Positions 4,218 to 49,694 of a stretch of 64,000 bases of DNA are shown one piece after another (position 1 is the first letter of the stretch; every line of letters begins with the position of its first letter). A model generated the notes under the pieces. That model saw only the letters and a list, made by a program, of their open reading frames with translations, made no database searches and was not told the origin of the DNA. This stretch comes from a virus. A program made the translations under genes and the position numbers. Where the stretch lies: positions 1 to 64,000 of the IMG/VR virus record IMGVR_UViG_3300028840_005768; one strand, written 5' to 3'.

Positions 4218-4721
4218 AGCCCGGCTCCCGGTGTCCGGTCGCCCCACTCCGGCCGCTGGCCCGGGGACCCCGCTCGGGCCGCCGGGCGCCCCGCTCGGGC
4301 CGCCCCGCTCTGGCCGCCCCGCTCTGGCCGCCCCGCTCTGGCCGCCCCGCTCTGGCCGCCCCGCTCTGGCCGCCCCGCTCTGGCCGCCCCGCTCTGGCCG
4401 CCCCGCTCTGAGGCCGGTCGCCCGGTCATCTAACCGTGGCGTCGACTGGGGGAATCGGTTCTAACCGTGGATCCCGCCGGGTACGATGGGGTCTTGATCT
4501 AACCGTGGATCCCGCCGGGCGCAATGGCGTCTTTGATCTAACCGGTGAGTTACACGGGCGGATTGGCGCCTGTCGTGCCACCTCGAGTCTGATTGATCTT
4601 GATGTCAGTCTGCTGGTGTCAGTCTGTTGGCGAGGGCGAGAAGGCCTAGAAATGAGTGACCCGGCAACCGAAGGCCGGTTACCGGGCCACGTCACTATGA
4701 ATGACTGAATCTAAGTGCCAC
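4218..4721. repeat. Non-coding repeat region
   Basis: No convincing gene is seen between 4105 and 4721. 4218-4240 carries the CCCGGCTCCCGGTGTCCGG motif, an inverted copy of the repeats at 1-139. At 4305-4412 there are eight copies of a 14-bp unit (CCGCTCTGGCCGCC), with degenerate copies before them. At 4429-4545, CTAACCGTGG occurs three times plus a truncated copy, spaced 31, 38 and 39 bp. At 4604-4633, GTGTCAGTCTG.TG is duplicated. The region separates two convergent transcription units. Confidence 0.85.
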
Positions 4722-11778: not shown

Positions 11779-11798
11779 TTGCAACAGGGACAGCCAAG

Positions 11799-12150
11799 TG
11801 GACCCGCCGGGAATTGAACCCGGGTCCTGCGACAGTTCCATGCCGCCGTCTACGTGCGTATTCGATCGATCGGATCTTGCTGGGTCAGGCTCGATCGACA
11901 AAGCGATTACCAGCCAGCCGGCGTAATCTTGGCCCCAGTCGTACCGGCATCGTACCGGGGTTGCTTGCCGAGGTGGTCGGCCGACCGGTTGCCCACCTCG
12001 GCGAGGGCTTCCGGCCGGAGCTGCTTACGCAGCCATTGCCAATTCGGTCTTGGCGTCTAAAGGAATGATCGGCTTTTAACGTGGCCCATGCCGATCAACC
12101 ACGGCACGCAGGCAAGTCACTTTCCTGCCCAGTCGATTCCTGTCGGGCCC
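11799..12150 (-). ncRNA. ssrA: tmRNA with tag peptide (A)AKTELAMAA
   Basis: A complete one-piece tmRNA of about 352 nt. The 5' end GGGCCCG (12150-12144) pairs with CGGGTCC (11806-11800) as acceptor stem. It is followed by the D-like segment, a first pseudoknot (CCGTGG/CCACG with a GATCGGC/GCCGATC helix), TTTAGAC, and a resume codon GCC at 12054. The tag frame (12054-12025) reads A-K-T-E-L-A-M-A-A and ends in TAA. The 3' part has CCGGG-TTCAATT-CCCGG as T arm and discriminator A; CCA is not encoded. It rescues stalled ribosomes with SmpB, which is not encoded in the window. Its first 56 nt overlap the 3' end of the gene at 12095-12391. Confidence 0.95.
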
Positions 12151-21793: not shown

Positions 21794-22843
21794 ATGCGAC
21801 AACCGAAACCCTACTGGAAAACCAGTCACCGATGCTGGTACGTGAAGATCGACGGGCGCCACCATCGGCTCGACCCGGACGAAAAGAAGGCTTGGGACCA
21901 GTATCACAAATTGATGGCTGGCCGCGTGGAGCTGACTGCAGATAATCGGGTCACGGATCTAATCAACCAGTTCCTTGACTGGTCGGAACGGAACCATGCC
22001 CCGGAGACCTACCGCTGGTATGAGACTTTCCTGCTTGGTTTCGGCAAATCACTGCTTCCCAGGTTGAAGCTCTCCAAACTCAAGCCGTTCCATCTCACCC
22101 GCTGGCTCGATGGCGCCTACCCGGCGGCGACCACCAGCCCGAGCACCCGGCACGGGGCAACCCGCGCGGTCCAAAGGGCTTTCAACTGGGCCGAGGAGCA
22201 GGGGCTGACGGACCGTAACCCCCTCCGCAAGGTGAAGAAGCCTCGGCCCAACCGCCGGGAGAATTATCTCTGGCCCGAGCAGTACGAGCGGTTCCTGGGA
22301 CTGATCAAGGACGAGCCCTTCCGGGACATCGTCGAGATCCTTCGGCATACCGGCTGCCGGCCGGAAGAGGCTCGCGTGCTGACCGCCGCCGAGTTCAACC
22401 GGCGGGATCGTTGCTGGGATCTGCCGGCCGGGTTCACAGCGAAAACCAAGAAGGCCCGAGCCGTCCCCCTGAACGACCGGGCCTTCGAGATTTGCACGAG
22501 AAAGGCGGAGAGGTTCCCTGAGGGGCCGATCTTCCGCAATACCCGTGGTAATCCCTGGTGGAAGAATGCCTTGGTGGAGCGTTGTCGCCGGCTACGGGCC
22601 AAGGTCGATTTCTATATCTCGCCTTATACGATTCGCCACACGTTTGCCACCGATGCGATTATCCGCGGCGTCGACTTGATCACGATCGCGGAGATCATGG
22701 GCCATGCGAGCCTGGAGATGCTCCAGAGGATTTACCAGCACGTCAGCCAGCGGTCGGACCACGTCCGTAAAGGCGTGGAGAAGGCGACTGAGCACCTTAC
22801 AGGCGGCGACCACGCAGCGGCTCCGTTGAAGATTGTTGGATGA
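21794..22843 (+). CDS. int: Phage-type tyrosine integrase
   Basis: 349 residues. An N-terminal arm-binding-like region (W-Y-V-K-I-D-G-R-H-H-R-L) leads to a core-binding domain and the catalytic domain with R189 (G-C-R-P-E-E-A-R), a lysine around 217-220, the box Y-T-I-R-H-T (R281, H282; the first box His is Tyr), H304 (M-G-H-A-S) and nucleophile Y314. It should carry out site-specific integration. The only large gene on this strand after 4104. Its last 47 bp overlap the convergent excisionase-like gene. Confidence 0.92.
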   Translation: MRQPKPYWKTSHRCWYVKIDGRHHRLDPDEKKAWDQYHKLMAGRVELTADNRVTDLINQFLDWSERNHAPETYRWYETFLLGFGKSLLPRLKLSKLKPFHLTRWLDGAYPAATTSPSTRHGATRAVQRAFNWAEEQGLTDRNPLRKVKKPRPNRRENYLWPEQYERFLGLIKDEPFRDIVEILRHTGCRPEEARVLTAAEFNRRDRCWDLPAGFTAKTKKARAVPLNDRAFEICTRKAERFPEGPIFRNTRGNPWWKNALVERCRRLRAKVDFYISPYTIRHTFATDAIIRGVDLITIAEIMGHASLEMLQRIYQHVSQRSDHVRKGVEKATEHLTGGDHAAAPLKIVG

Positions 22844-33602: not shown

Positions 33603-34748
33603 CTACCAAGCAGCGAGAATGTGATTGAAGACTTCCATGAATCGATCGATCTCGTCTTCCTGATTGAAGTAGCTCAGGCTGATTCGCGTGGAAGCTGGGA
33701 TCTCCAGTGCCTTGTGTAGCGGGATGGCGCAATGGGTACCCGCACGAACTGCAATCTCGTGCTCAGCAAGTCCATGGGCTAAGTCATGGGGGTGGATTCC
33801 GTCGACCGTGAAGCTGAGGATGGCACACCGTGGGTTAACGGGTCCGAGAATTGTGACACGCTGGTGGGCATGTAGGCGGTTGTAGGCGTAGCGAGTGAGC
33901 CTCTTCACATGCCGATGAATGGCGTGGCAGCCAATACGCTGCCAATAATCACAGGCTGCTCCAAGACCGATTGCTTGGAGAATGGGCGGGGTACCGGCTT
34001 CCAACTTGCGGTGGCCAGGTACATAGTCCTGGATGCTGGCGTCCTGCACTATTCCGCCGCCAAAAATGCAAGGTTCCATTTCTGCCAGGCGATCCTCGCG
34101 AACGTAGAGAACTCCAACGCCGGTTGGCCCATGCATCTTGTGACCACTGAAGGCTAGGAAATCGATGTTCTTGCACTGGTGTGGAATATGCGGGATGCTT
34201 TGGGCAGCATCGACCACGACAACAGCATCGGCGCGGTGCGCCAAGGTAGTGATCAAGCCTACCGGGTTGACACATCCGAGCACGTTGCTGACCGCAGGGA
34301 AGGCGATGATCTTGGTAATGCCATGTCGGATCTGTGCTGCAATGGCTTCCTGTGACAGAGGAATGCTGAATCGACCCGCCTGAAACAGGTGTAAGACGCA
34401 AAGCTTCGCACCGGTCCGCTTGGCGAGCTGCTGCCAGGGGATCAGGTTGCTGTGATGTTCCATCGCGGTGACGAGGATCTCGTCACCTGGACCAACATGC
34501 CGGTCACCCCAACTCCTGGCGACCATGTTGAGGGACGCTGTGGCCCCACTTGTGAAGATCACTTCCTCCGGCTTTGCCTGAATGAAACTGGCGACCTGTC
34601 GGCGGGCCCTTTCGTAACGATCGGTTGTCTTCACTGCGTAGGCATGCAGGCCGCGATGGATGTTGCTGTATTCACGGGCAGCATCCTGCATGGCATCCCA
34701 AGCAGTGTCGAGGCATTGTGTGCTAGCAGCGTTGTCGAGGTAGATCAT
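33603..34748 (-). CDS. SufS/CsdA-type cysteine desulfurase
   Basis: 381 residues, class V PLP enzyme. Visible: substrate-region L-D-N-A-A-S, M-E-H-H-S-N (96-101), D180 in V-V-D-A-A-Q-S, PLP lysine K204 in S-G-H-K-M-H-G-P-T-G, and the persulfide cysteine C340 in R-A-G-T-H-C-A. All catalytic residues are intact. It liberates sulfur from cysteine for Fe-S clusters or thio-modification. It is rare in phages. No SufE-like partner is seen. ATGA overlap with the preceding gene. Confidence 0.92.
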   Translation of the reverse strand: MIYLDNAASTQCLDTAWDAMQDAAREYSNIHRGLHAYAVKTTDRYERARRQVASFIQAKPEEVIFTSGATASLNMVARSWGDRHVGPGDEILVTAMEHHSNLIPWQQLAKRTGAKLCVLHLFQAGRFSIPLSQEAIAAQIRHGITKIIAFPAVSNVLGCVNPVGLITTLAHRADAVVVVDAAQSIPHIPHQCKNIDFLAFSGHKMHGPTGVGVLYVREDRLAEMEPCIFGGGIVQDASIQDYVPGHRKLEAGTPPILQAIGLGAACDYWQRIGCHAIHRHVKRLTRYAYNRLHAHQRVTILGPVNPRCAILSFTVDGIHPHDLAHGLAEHEIAVRAGTHCAIPLHKALEIPASTRISLSYFNQEDEIDRFMEVFNHILAAW

Positions 34749-38918: not shown

Positions 38919-39283
38919 CCCTGGTACCCCGTACCGGCTGCAATCAGCTCAGCCGCCACCCGCTTCGAGATGGGGAGGAGTTCAGTCTCACCGCCGCGGA
39001 TCACCGACAGTTGGCACTGCTCGAAGCCGGGCGGTAGGCAGACAGAGAGGTCATCAACAGGCGTCAGAATCTCACGGGTGCCCTTTCTGGTAGGCCACTC
39101 GATCGAAGAGGCGATCTTGCATCGTCCACCTTCAAACGAGATACCGGCGGCAATCAGCGCGAGAGCAACCTTCCTGGAGATGCGATGATAATCATGGTGG
39201 CCACGTACAACTTCCAGTGCGTCGGGCAGCAAGACGCAGATGCTGTCAGGTCGTGGCAGTGCTGGTACGCCCTTGGTGATCAT
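38915..39283 (-). CDS. Hypothetical protein with internal repeat
   Basis: 122 residues. The pattern I-S-R-K-V-A-L-A-L-I-A-A-G recurs as I-S-K-R-V-A-A-E-L-I-A-A-G, suggesting two copies of one small domain. Function unknown. Confidence 0.6.
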   Translation of the reverse strand: MITKGVPALPRPDSICVLLPDALEVVRGHHDYHRISRKVALALIAAGISFEGGRCKIASSIEWPTRKGTREILTPVDDLSVCLPPGFEQCQLSVIRGGETELLPISKRVAAELIAAGTGYQG

Positions 39284-39285
39284 TG

Positions 39286-39831
39286 TTAGAATCCTGGTAG
39301 CTGAAGACGAGTTACTTGGGTTACGGGTGATTTGGCAGGTTCAGGCGGGCGGACTATTTCTGGAAGAGCAAATGTCTGTTCTGCGATCTGACGCCCACTA
39401 AATGCCTTAGGTTTATGGAATAGGCTGAGATCAAATCCGACGTCCTGTTTAGTGATGCGTGGCGCTTTACAAGGGCTTTTCCATTGAGTTCGATTACAGG
39501 CCTCCGCCCACAAGGCTTCAGCGTTCTCTGGAAGTTCAAGCTGTGTACCAAGCTGAATCTTCCAGGATGTTCCAAGTAAGACCCATGGCTTATCCCAGCC
39601 AGAGCATTGGATCTTGGCGACATAGGGTTGAAGCTTTTCGATGCTGTAGGCATCGCCTTTTACTTCTGCCAAGAGGCATTGATTGATGATGAAATCGGGG
39701 ATGTAGTAATGGAGGTCGAGTTCCTCATATCTCCATTCCCAGCCGAGCAGATCAAAGAGCGCTGCCCAACGTGCCTCTGCTCGACTGCGGAATTGGATGT
39801 TGTGATAGGTGGTAGGAATGCCGTGTTTCAT
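39286..39831 (-). CDS. PD-(D/E)XK endonuclease-like protein
   Basis: 181 residues. F-R-S-R-A-E-A-R-W-A...L-G-W-E-W-R-Y-E, then Y-I-P-D-F and A-E-V-K-G: the E...D...E-x-K arrangement of restriction-endonuclease/VSR-like phage nucleases. It lies immediately next to the hairpin/pentamer array; the array's terminal partial repeat begins 4 bp upstream of the ATG. Confidence 0.78.
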   Translation of the reverse strand: MKHGIPTTYHNIQFRSRAEARWAALFDLLGWEWRYEELDLHYYIPDFIINQCLLAEVKGDAYSIEKLQPYVAKIQCSGWDKPWVLLGTSWKIQLGTQLELPENAEALWAEACNRTQWKSPCKAPRITKQDVGFDLSLFHKPKAFSGRQIAEQTFALPEIVRPPEPAKSPVTQVTRLQLPGF

Positions 39832-40674
39832 GTGAACCTTGCGTTGACGCGATGGGATTCGATCCGATTAGACGCACTCTGATTTGACGAGCGAAGACAT
39901 AACAAACCGGGATAAGCCTTGTTTCAACCACTCCAGACTCCCAGAGGAACTGGGAGTGGTTGCCTCTCAACGAGAGGTAACCTTGCGTTGTTTGGATTCG
40001 ATTCGACCGGACACAACTAGATTCAATGCGACAAGGTCGGACTTAACTTGACCAAATGCACCATGGATGAGTAATCGTTGTAGTTTTGTTTCAACCACTC
40101 CAGACTCCCAGAGAAATCGGGAGTGGTTGCCTCTTAATGAGAGGTAACCTTGCGTTGACGTGACCAGACGCGACCCAATGAGATTTGACCTGACCAGACA
40201 CGCCTTGACCTGACAAGACCTAACAAGACCTGACGAGCCCTGTTTCAACCACTCCAGGCTCCTAGAGGAGCTGGGAGTGGTTGCCTCTCACCTGGGTGAG
40301 AGGTAACCTTGCGTTGCTAAGATCCAACCGAATATGACAAGACGAAACTGGGTATGATACGACGCGACAAGACACGATATGACCCGATATGACCGGACCA
40401 GTTTCAATCACTCCAGGCTCCCAAGGAGCCGGGAGTGGTTGCCTCTCAATGAGAGGTAACCTTGCGTTGCCACAGTGTGACGGGACACAATGAGACCCGA
40501 CAAGACACAACAAGCACGGACTTAACACGACATGACGGGCTGGGTTCAACCACTCCAGGCTCCCAAAGGAGCCGGGAGTGGTTGCCTCTCACCTGGGTGA
40601 GAGGTAACCTTGCGTTGACAAGATACAACTTGACCGGACCAAACTTGACTTGACCGGACATGATGAGTCCCGCC
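39832..40674. repeat. Array of double-hairpin modules and pentamer-periodic spacers
   Basis: Five modules: 39921-39990, 40088-40157, 40242-40316, 40401-40469, 40543-40617; a partial end (AACCTTGCGTTG) is at 39835-39846. Each reads, on plus, GTTTCAACCACTCC...GGAGTGGTT then GCCTCTC...GAGAGGTAACC and CTTGCGTTG, giving two hairpins that share GGTT. Spacers (39847-39920, 39991-40087, 40158-40241, 40317-40400, 40470-40542, 40618-40674) differ in sequence but consist of 5-nt units GAYNN, 10-17 per spacer, for example GACCAGACGCGACCC. In modules 3 and 5 the second stem is lengthened on both sides (ACC/GGT). No gene fits the region. Function unknown. Confidence 0.92.
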
Positions 40675-41262
40675 TCACGCAGCCTCTGCGGTGGTCCCTT
40701 CCGCCCACTCGAACTTCACCGGGCGGAAGCGACCGTAGTAGCCGTTGTTTCGCGGCCGAAAGCGACCGAGGCCAATGAACTGGCCGGCTTCAGTAAGCAC
40801 CTTCTCGAAGATTTCACGAGTCACTGTGTCATCAAGGATGTAGAAGGTGATCGTACCGGCCCACTTGTCGATTTTGGGGAAGCACTTCTCAACACGGCTT
40901 CCGCCACCACGCTGGCCGTTGCTTGGCACGAAGAGCCATTCACCCGGTACATCGGAGGCCTTGATTCCGAGGTCAATGGGTTCGGTAACCATGACACCGG
41001 CCTCAAAGTGCTTGGTGTAGGTCGCCTTCCCCTTGCCGGGGATTTGAAGCCCAAGGAACTTTGCCGCCTCTGAGAGACAGTTTTTGAGCGCCATGGGCGG
41101 AATGATTACGTTGCCCGCTTCGTTGACATGCATTCGCATACGCCAACAGCGGGTCTCATGGTCCTTCGGCAGCTCACGATCGCGGCGGGGCTCGCTGATG
41201 TACTTGGATTGCGAGTACGGCGAATTCGCAGCCGATTCAAGGGTCACAACACAGGTTTGCAT
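40675..41262 (-). CDS. Phage protein with RAMP-like glycine-rich C-terminus
   Basis: 195 residues. Conserved-looking segments: R-M-R-M-H...G-N-V-I-I-P-P-M-A-L-K-N, G-K-G-K-A-T-Y-T-K-H-F, V-P-S-N-G-Q-R-G-G-G-S-R-V, and G-Q-F-I-G-L-G-R-F-R-P-R-N-N-G near the end. The last resembles the glycine-rich loop of RAMP proteins (Cas5/6/7 fold). This is a similarity by eye only; the family is known to me just as a phage hypothetical. The stop codon borders the double-hairpin array. Confidence 0.6.
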   Translation of the reverse strand: MQTCVVTLESAANSPYSQSKYISEPRRDRELPKDHETRCWRMRMHVNEAGNVIIPPMALKNCLSEAAKFLGLQIPGKGKATYTKHFEAGVMVTEPIDLGIKASDVPGEWLFVPSNGQRGGGSRVEKCFPKIDKWAGTITFYILDDTVTREIFEKVLTEAGQFIGLGRFRPRNNGYYGRFRPVKFEWAEGTTAEAA

Positions 41263-41458
41263 GTTTTCTCCAATAGAAAGTAGAAACAGGAAGGTTCACG
41301 GTAGAAAGTTTGTTACAGTGAGAGTGAGTGTGGGTGTGTTTACATAGGCAATCTCCTTTCTAAATCAGCCTCACTACGCCGTGTCACATCTTGCCCGGCT
41401 TAGACCGGATGAGTGCTGCCAGGTTGAAACGAACCCAGCCATGTCCCGCGAAGCCGAG
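41263..41458. other. Short intergenic region
   Basis: No convincing gene; a 22-residue frame from ATG 41441 on the minus strand is possible but unsupported. On the minus strand AAAGGAG is followed by ATG-TAA (start then stop) near 41345, then a CA-rich stretch (TAAACACACCCACACTC). Confidence 0.5.
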
Positions 41459-42547
41459 TTATTCGATGTCTCTCTTTCTGAAGTACCGTGCCTCTTTTGG
41501 CACCCCACTGTCCGTTAATTCGCGAAACCGAAAGCTCACCGTCTCACCCACGCGGAAATGCTTCCCCTGAAACTCACTCGGCATGTCGACGCCTGGATGC
41601 CTGGTCGCATGTAGCTTCATGGCATCTGTGGTGAACTCTCGCTCGGCATCCGTAAGCCCAGACAGCTCGAGCCGCTTGCCGCGGAAGTCGGTGATCAGCG
41701 CACCAATCTTGCCAAGGTGCTTTGAACCTTTGTCCGTTTTCCGGCCGGAAGTGAAGCCTGTGATCGTGGCCTCAGCGTCCAGGAACGGCTTGTACTTGAG
41801 CAGGGTACTGACACGCTTCGGTGTCCACGTTGCCGTGGGACTTCGAACGATGACGCCTTCTCCACCGTGACTCAGGACTTCGTCGAGGAAGCTTTCCAGA
41901 GCCTGCCGGGCGCCAACCTCTGTGTGCGGGAGCATGATCTGCTCATGGACCCGAACAAACTCCCCGTGTACACACTGTTGGAGAAACTTCAGCTCGCCTG
42001 CAAAGGTGGAGCCACGTTCTACCAGGTCAAACCCAGGCCGCACAGCGATCCGCCGCCGCGCCCATGACATGAACTCTTTGTAGCTCACGGCACAGTGGAA
42101 GTTGGTGTTCTTGATTTCTCCGTCTGCAAACAGACGTTCAGGATGCGGCGATGAGTAGACGGCATACGTGATCTGATCGAACCGCGGATCGGGACTGTCT
42201 CCCGCACAGATCGACCGGCACGTCTGGAAACGGCCCCGTCCAGCCCACAGCTCGCCGTCTAAGAAGCAGGGCGGCAGATCGTCCAGGAACCAGTCAGGAG
42301 CAATGATCGGGTTCCCATAGCGGCTCCAGAGGCCTGTAGCCGTGGGCTTGATCTTGGCCTTCCGGCCGCCCGTCTTGGGATCCGTGACCGACGCCCAGGG
42401 GACTTCGACCGTAGGGAGCCCGCGGGAGAGGCCGCCGTCCCAGAAGCATCTGGTCCCGTCGAGCTTCTCACTCAGGAACCAGCCGGCGATGTTCGATTTC
42501 TCAGGATTGAACGTCTTTGCCAGTTGTAGGAATTCACGTCGTGCCAT
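41459..42547 (-). CDS. ATP-dependent DNA ligase
   Basis: 362 residues from ATG 42547; an upstream extension of the frame runs antiphase through the sigma-factor gene. Motif I is S-E-K28-L-D-G-T-R; motif III/IIIa lies around F-L-D-G-E-L-W; motif IV is G-G-E-G-V-I-V-R; motif V is L-L-K-Y-K-P. A C-terminal OB domain follows (H-L-G-K-I-G-A-L). It seals nicks in phage DNA replication and repair. Confidence 0.9.
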   Translation of the reverse strand: MARREFLQLAKTFNPEKSNIAGWFLSEKLDGTRCFWDGGLSRGLPTVEVPWASVTDPKTGGRKAKIKPTATGLWSRYGNPIIAPDWFLDDLPPCFLDGELWAGRGRFQTCRSICAGDSPDPRFDQITYAVYSSPHPERLFADGEIKNTNFHCAVSYKEFMSWARRRIAVRPGFDLVERGSTFAGELKFLQQCVHGEFVRVHEQIMLPHTEVGARQALESFLDEVLSHGGEGVIVRSPTATWTPKRVSTLLKYKPFLDAEATITGFTSGRKTDKGSKHLGKIGALITDFRGKRLELSGLTDAEREFTTDAMKLHATRHPGVDMPSEFQGKHFRVGETVSFRFRELTDSGVPKEARYFRKRDIE

Positions 42548-48068: not shown

Positions 48069-48071
48069 AAG

Positions 48072-48144
48072 AGCCGCCGATAGGAATCGAACCTACAACC
48101 TGCTGATTACAAATCAGCTGCTCTGCCGGTTGAGCTACAGCGGC
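48072..48144 (-). tRNA. tRNA-Thr (anticodon TGT)
   Basis: Complete cloverleaf: acceptor GCCGCTG/CGGCGGC, D arm, anticodon loop TTTGTAA, T arm GTAGG-TTCGATT-CCTAT, discriminator T. No encoded CCA. Its 5' base overlaps the stop codon of the gene at 48144-48425. Confidence 0.93.
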
Positions 48145-49607: not shown

Positions 49608-49621
49608 CGTTATCCTCCAAG

Positions 49622-49694
49622 CTGTGGCGGCAGGGTTCGAACCTGCGACCTACGGATTAACAATCCGGCGCTCTACCGGCTGAGCTACGCCACA
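49622..49694 (-). tRNA. tRNA-Asn (anticodon GTT)
   Basis: Complete cloverleaf: acceptor TGTGGCG/CGCCACA, anticodon loop TTGTTAA, T arm GCAGG-TTCGAAC-CCTGC, discriminator G. The base pair at 27-43 is C-T. No encoded CCA. Confidence 0.92.

Follow-up and report, generated by a model that had tools for sequence, protein, structure and literature searches.

The closest described counterpart of the locus reported here is VIPR (Viral Interference Programmable Repeat), which was presented in a 2026 preprint (PMC13142463) and is exemplified by the system of Escherichia phage SUSP1 (PDB 36pp). As set out in the main text of that preprint, VIPR combines a phage RAMP protein, Vipr, with vrRNAs composed of 9–16 repeats of GGY/NN "or a related consensus", each vrRNA ending in an invariable 3' tail, which is structured in SUSP1. 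The NN bases are described there as pairing with dsDNA read as NNxNNx, that is with a 1-nt skip, and the natural targets, which are repressed, as competing phages, prophages and satellites; some of the arrays carry hammerhead ribozymes between their guides. VIPR has been proposed to be older than CRISPR. The locus that we describe is very probably a phage VIPR, with a vipr gene followed on the minus strand by six vrRNA guides, and the Vipr homology, the number of pentamers, the variability of the NN bases, the constant tail, the phage context and the strand all fit this identification. It thereby offers an example, found from raw sequence, of this newly reported RNA-guided DNA recognition system, together with its close relatives.

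The locus lies in the first 64,000 nucleotides of the IMG/VR virus record IMGVR_UViG_3300028840_005768, and this whole stretch is referred to as the window. Six tracts of 5-nt repeats and five double-hairpin modules were found within positions 39837–40674, and the array occupies the whole gap between two minus-strand genes (Table 1). Pooled over the spacers, identity at lag 5 was 0.45, as against 0.26 +/- 0.02 in dinucleotide shuffles (z=8.6), with further peaks at lags 10, 15 and 20 (0.46–0.50) and values of about 0.2 at the remaining lags. Likewise, 56 GAY triplets were in phase, compared with 17 +/- 2 in shuffled spacers (maximum 25 in 2000 shuffles). The strict 5-nt periodicity and the five double-hairpin modules that a first-pass annotation had pointed out were thus both recovered; its figure of 10–17 pentamers per spacer narrows to 11–16 in the regular tracts, the 5' portion of the fifth tract being irregular. 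The periodicity also withstood the two checks proposed against it, as the lag-5 peak did not vanish against shuffles and the spacers of homologues did not prove to be coding or unrelated sequence. A blind array scan of the 64 kb window detected this locus only, and in 50 kb of phage SUSP1 it returned just three arrays, all at the VIPR locus; a lag-5 scan of the other 42 kb of the record, which is 106 kb long, found no second array. Searches with a 19-mer of the module in IMG/VR and with the entire array in GenBank phages gave no match.

Table 1. Predicted features of the locus in minus-strand order (window coordinates).
Feature	Position	Strand	Remarks
vipr	40675..41262	-	195-aa RAMP (Cas7-like) with C-terminal glycine-rich loop GLGRFRPRNNGYYGRF; from AF2, Foldseek, profile and hhalign
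vrRNA guide 1	40620..40674	-	11 pentamers; starts immediately after the vipr stop codon
Tail CAACGCAAGG + double-hairpin module 1	40544..40617	-	
vrRNA guide 2	40472..40541	-	14 pentamers
Tail + double-hairpin module 2	40402..40469	-	
vrRNA guide 3	40319..40398	-	16 pentamers
Tail + double-hairpin module 3	40243..40316	-	
vrRNA guide 4	40160..40239	-	16 pentamers
Tail + double-hairpin module 4	40089..40157	-	
vrRNA guide 5	39993..40062	-	about 14 pentamers; 5' flank 40063–40088 irregular
Tail + double-hairpin module 5	39922..39990	-	
vrRNA guide 6	39849..39918	-	14 pentamers
Guide 6 tail CAACGCAAGG	39837..39846	-	no hairpins; 5 nt lie between its end and the next start codon
Candidate accessory (vap) or ordinary phage gene	39286..39831	-	nuclease-like with PD...EVK motif; resembles resolvase/endonuclease I of phages

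The repeat had been read as GAYNN, of which the period stands and the strand and unit do not: the sense strand of the array is the minus strand, and the repeat is therefore RTY-NN, with R, T and Y fixed and NN free. Among the 85 pentamers, position 1 is G in 57 and A in 26, position 2 is T in 71 and G in 10 and position 3 is C in 66 and T in 19, whereas positions 4 and 5 are near-uniform. The earlier suggestion that a trinucleotide is read every 5 nt was correct in this sense, with the fixed triplet as the scaffold and the free bases as the informative part. A constant tail, CAACGCAAGG, is present at all six guides and opens each module, so that the full layout on the minus strand is [RTY NN]n + CAACGCAAGG + two hairpins. 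The pentamer phase is locked to this tail, with the final triplet running into it at 6/6 guides. The number of pentamers agrees with that of the described vrRNAs, and the unit falls under the "related consensus" rather than under strict GGY, with intermediates seen in relatives. It should be noted that GGY, the main published motif, accounts for just 6/85 triplets, which we counted against the VIPR reading.

One tract contains a recognisable tandem unit of 10 nt, and slippage could give 5-nt runs; hence the array might be thought to consist of decayed pentanucleotide microsatellites, or of DNA spacing elements with no function as RNA. We consider this highly improbable, given that near-uniform NN bases beside a fixed triplet are the reverse of what decaying repeats display, that the phase is tied to the constant tail, and that the arrays of the relatives stay on one strand with respect to vipr.

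The gene of the 195-aa protein ends exactly where guide 1 starts. The protein had no match in Pfam or NCBIfam, and its one match in PHROG was to a PHROG of unknown function. An alignment of 19 sequences, A1, was the basis of an AF2 model (pLDDT 88) and of a profile search of PDB sequences. In Foldseek comparisons of the model with solved structures, the best matches were subunits of the Cas7 type from type VII and type III CRISPR complexes (TM about 0.5), and the predicted fold is accordingly that of a Cas7/Csm3-type RAMP. The sole significant match of the A1 profile in PDB sequences was the SUSP1 Vipr (36pp, E=6e-8). Comparisons by hhalign linked the protein with the SUSP1 gene product (probability 97, E=3e-11) and with a Pseudomonas phage protein flanked by GGC/NN arrays (E=7e-14). 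A single-RRM RAMP architecture, a glycine-rich loop and homology to known Viprs are thus combined in it, and by profile similarity and modelled fold the protein is a Vipr homologue. This overturns the earlier statement that the pattern fits no protein recognised at the locus, as the very gene that abuts the array encodes one.

TRAP had been named as the closest known logic, and it does share with the present array triplets placed every 5 nt; it differs in its protein and its triplet, and the free bases carry information here. In TRAP-like attenuation, a ring protein bound to triplets spaced by 2 nt on a leader RNA would control the downstream gene, and the last tract does lie just upstream of a start codon. 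No TRAP-family protein was found among the ten neighbouring proteins scanned, the sense triplets are RTY and not NAG, and the triplet varies between relatives as the RAMP gene stays beside the array, all of which makes such attenuation extremely improbable; the reader protein is instead most probably the predicted Cas7-like RAMP, Vipr. Class 1 CRISPR-Cas resembles the locus in the RAMP fold of its Cas7/Csm3 backbone and in having an array built from variable and constant segments of RNA. In contrast to it, the information here is carried by NN dinucleotides at 5-nt intervals, and the locus repeats part pentamer tracts and not contiguous unique spacers. Moreover, the scan of the neighbouring proteins brought up no Cas family, nor was there a CRISPR array of repeats and spacers. 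The likeness to SUSP1-type VIPR is more extensive: both have a phage-encoded RAMP of about 195 aa, 9–16 pentamers with a fixed triplet and free NN bases, a constant 3' tail, and guides that are intergenic, beside vipr and on its strand. Of the earlier proposal of an undescribed RNA- or DNA-scaffold system, the RNA scaffold holds, and "undescribed" fails because VIPR was reported in the 2026 preprint.

A scan of IMG/VR gave 24 relatives, of which 23 have same-strand 5-nt arrays near the gene; the exception, L024, has none in the stretch examined. Array calls on the opposite strand were obtained only at GAC/GTC arrays, because this pattern is self-complementary. The dominant triplet is GGC in most relatives, GAC in L022 and L025, GRC in L008, RGY in L007, GTC in L006, GTT in L028 and AGC in L023, with mixtures in L013, L027 and L029. 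In the alignment, related Viprs that are 47–71% identical to the 195-aa protein go with GGY, GAC, GTC, GTT and RGY scaffolds. Comparison of scaffold triplets with protein residues revealed no clear determinant, the sequences being too few for this. At least five kinds of triplet occur with proteins of this degree of identity, and the determinant of scaffold recognition is therefore directly testable. The tail 10-mer CAACGCAAGG is also found on the vipr strand in L006, L009, L010 and L029; two further matches, in L037, are inside an apparent Chloroflexi dispersed repeat.

The five modules span 68–74 nt with two hairpins each, and their fold z-scores against shuffles range from -3.2 to -6.4. In the syntenic relative L006 the two-hairpin layout is kept with a different sequence, and two neighbouring pairs in the outer stem of its hairpin 2 carry substitutions on either side (A-T to G-C and C-G to T-A) that preserve the pairing. 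These compensatory changes, from a comparison of two phages, are evidence for the structure of the module. Structured RNA elements between successive guides are also a feature of the hammerhead-interspersed VIPR arrays described in PMC13142463; the present elements differ from these in being two plain hairpins, and an Rfam search of 39000–41600 recovered neither a hammerhead nor any other family at E up to 5. Rfam ribozymes were likewise absent from 14 relatives at gathering cut-offs. A role of the array hairpins as terminators was ruled out, as they have no T tract.

The double hairpins are probably linkers that separate the guides in one transcript, and not a part of the guides, because they are missing from guide 6 and from some relatives, L010 and L021 among them. 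The main alternative, within the same VIPR locus, is that the hairpins belong to the mature vrRNA as an extended 3' tail and are not processed off. Two features favour it, namely the structured tail that PMC13142463 describes for SUSP1 vrRNAs and the position of the hairpins directly after CAACGCAAGG at 5/6 guides. Yet guide 6 has the tail and no hairpins, and the tandem guides of L010 and L021 are parted by short AAGG-ended tails alone, so we regard an extended tail as rather unlikely. As linkers, the double hairpins hint at a means of keeping guides apart other than the hammerhead ribozyme. Several guides in L016 (4100–4900) are separated by near-identical linkers with inverted repeats (GGGAAGCGAC...GCGCTTCCC and GGTGGAAACACC), which had no match in Rfam and are perhaps another type of structured linker.

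In comparison with the main text of PMC13142463, the dominance of RTY over GGY and the double-hairpin modules between guides set this locus apart, and the combination of RTY scaffold and double-hairpin linkers appears to be new relative to that text. The 3' tail sequence also differs from that of SUSP1, as does the candidate accessory, which is nuclease-like and located after the array. We tentatively raise the possibility, to which we give slightly less than even weight, that this is a distinct VIPR type, in which RTY has replaced GGY as the scaffold triplet and a new, non-hammerhead double-hairpin processing element separates the guides. If so, the relatives would show a drift of the protein-RNA code as the NN targeting code stays.

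By analogy with the account in PMC13142463, each vrRNA would be lined with Vipr subunits that grip the fixed triplets and leave the NN dinucleotides exposed. These would pair with dsDNA read as NNxNNx, one base being skipped, and the resulting complex would keep a competing phage, prophage or satellite from being transcribed. We infer that the six guides and vipr would be made as one transcript. A search for a promoter of the sigma-70 type found none; this result, the lack of a supported target for guides 2–6 and the array-less relative L024 were weighed, together with the scarcity of GGY, against the VIPR reading. The double hairpins may then part the guides by providing processing points or by protecting ends, a role that would resemble the one suggested for the hammerhead ribozymes of some other VIPR arrays.

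Targets were sought with exact partial patterns of 9–10 dinucleotides under the 1-nt skip rule for guides 2–6. In viral_contigs, the patterns of guides 2, 3, 5 and 6 had no match, and that of guide 4 had one, which agreed only over the searched part. In genome_contigs, guide 3 gave four matches, the best of which extends to 12/16 dinucleotides; we took it as a chance match because it lies in an apparent Chloroflexi dispersed-repeat region and outside the expected codon frame. None of the extended matches of guides 2–6 was clearly beyond chance, and a comparison of the guides with other phage loci revealed no excess at any skip length.

The product of the gene after the array has a weak PHROG endonuclease match and relatives among phage resolvases/endonucleases I. 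The gene is kept in place only in L006, and may therefore be either an accessory of VIPR or one of the phage's ordinary genes; a search of IMG/VR for relatives of vap yielded none. The source record, a virus contig of 106,101 bases, also encodes DNA polymerase, helicase, primase, ligases, topoisomerase and an integrase; vipr and the array abutting it are thus phage-encoded. The integrase (21794–22843, plus strand; phrog_1, E=3e-57) suggests a temperate or integrated past of the phage. Elsewhere in the window we noted a tmRNA (11798–12150, minus strand) with the tag peptide AKTELAMAA, a tRNA-Thr (48071–48144) and a tRNA-Asn (49621–49694), and a protein that by sequence is probably cysteine-desulfurase-like (33603–34748, minus strand; aminotransferase class V type). 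Perfect short tandem repeats of 7-nt units are present at 29–141, and the region 4261–4410 holds another perfect tandem repeat, in which a unit of 14 nt occurs about 9 times (4287–4410).
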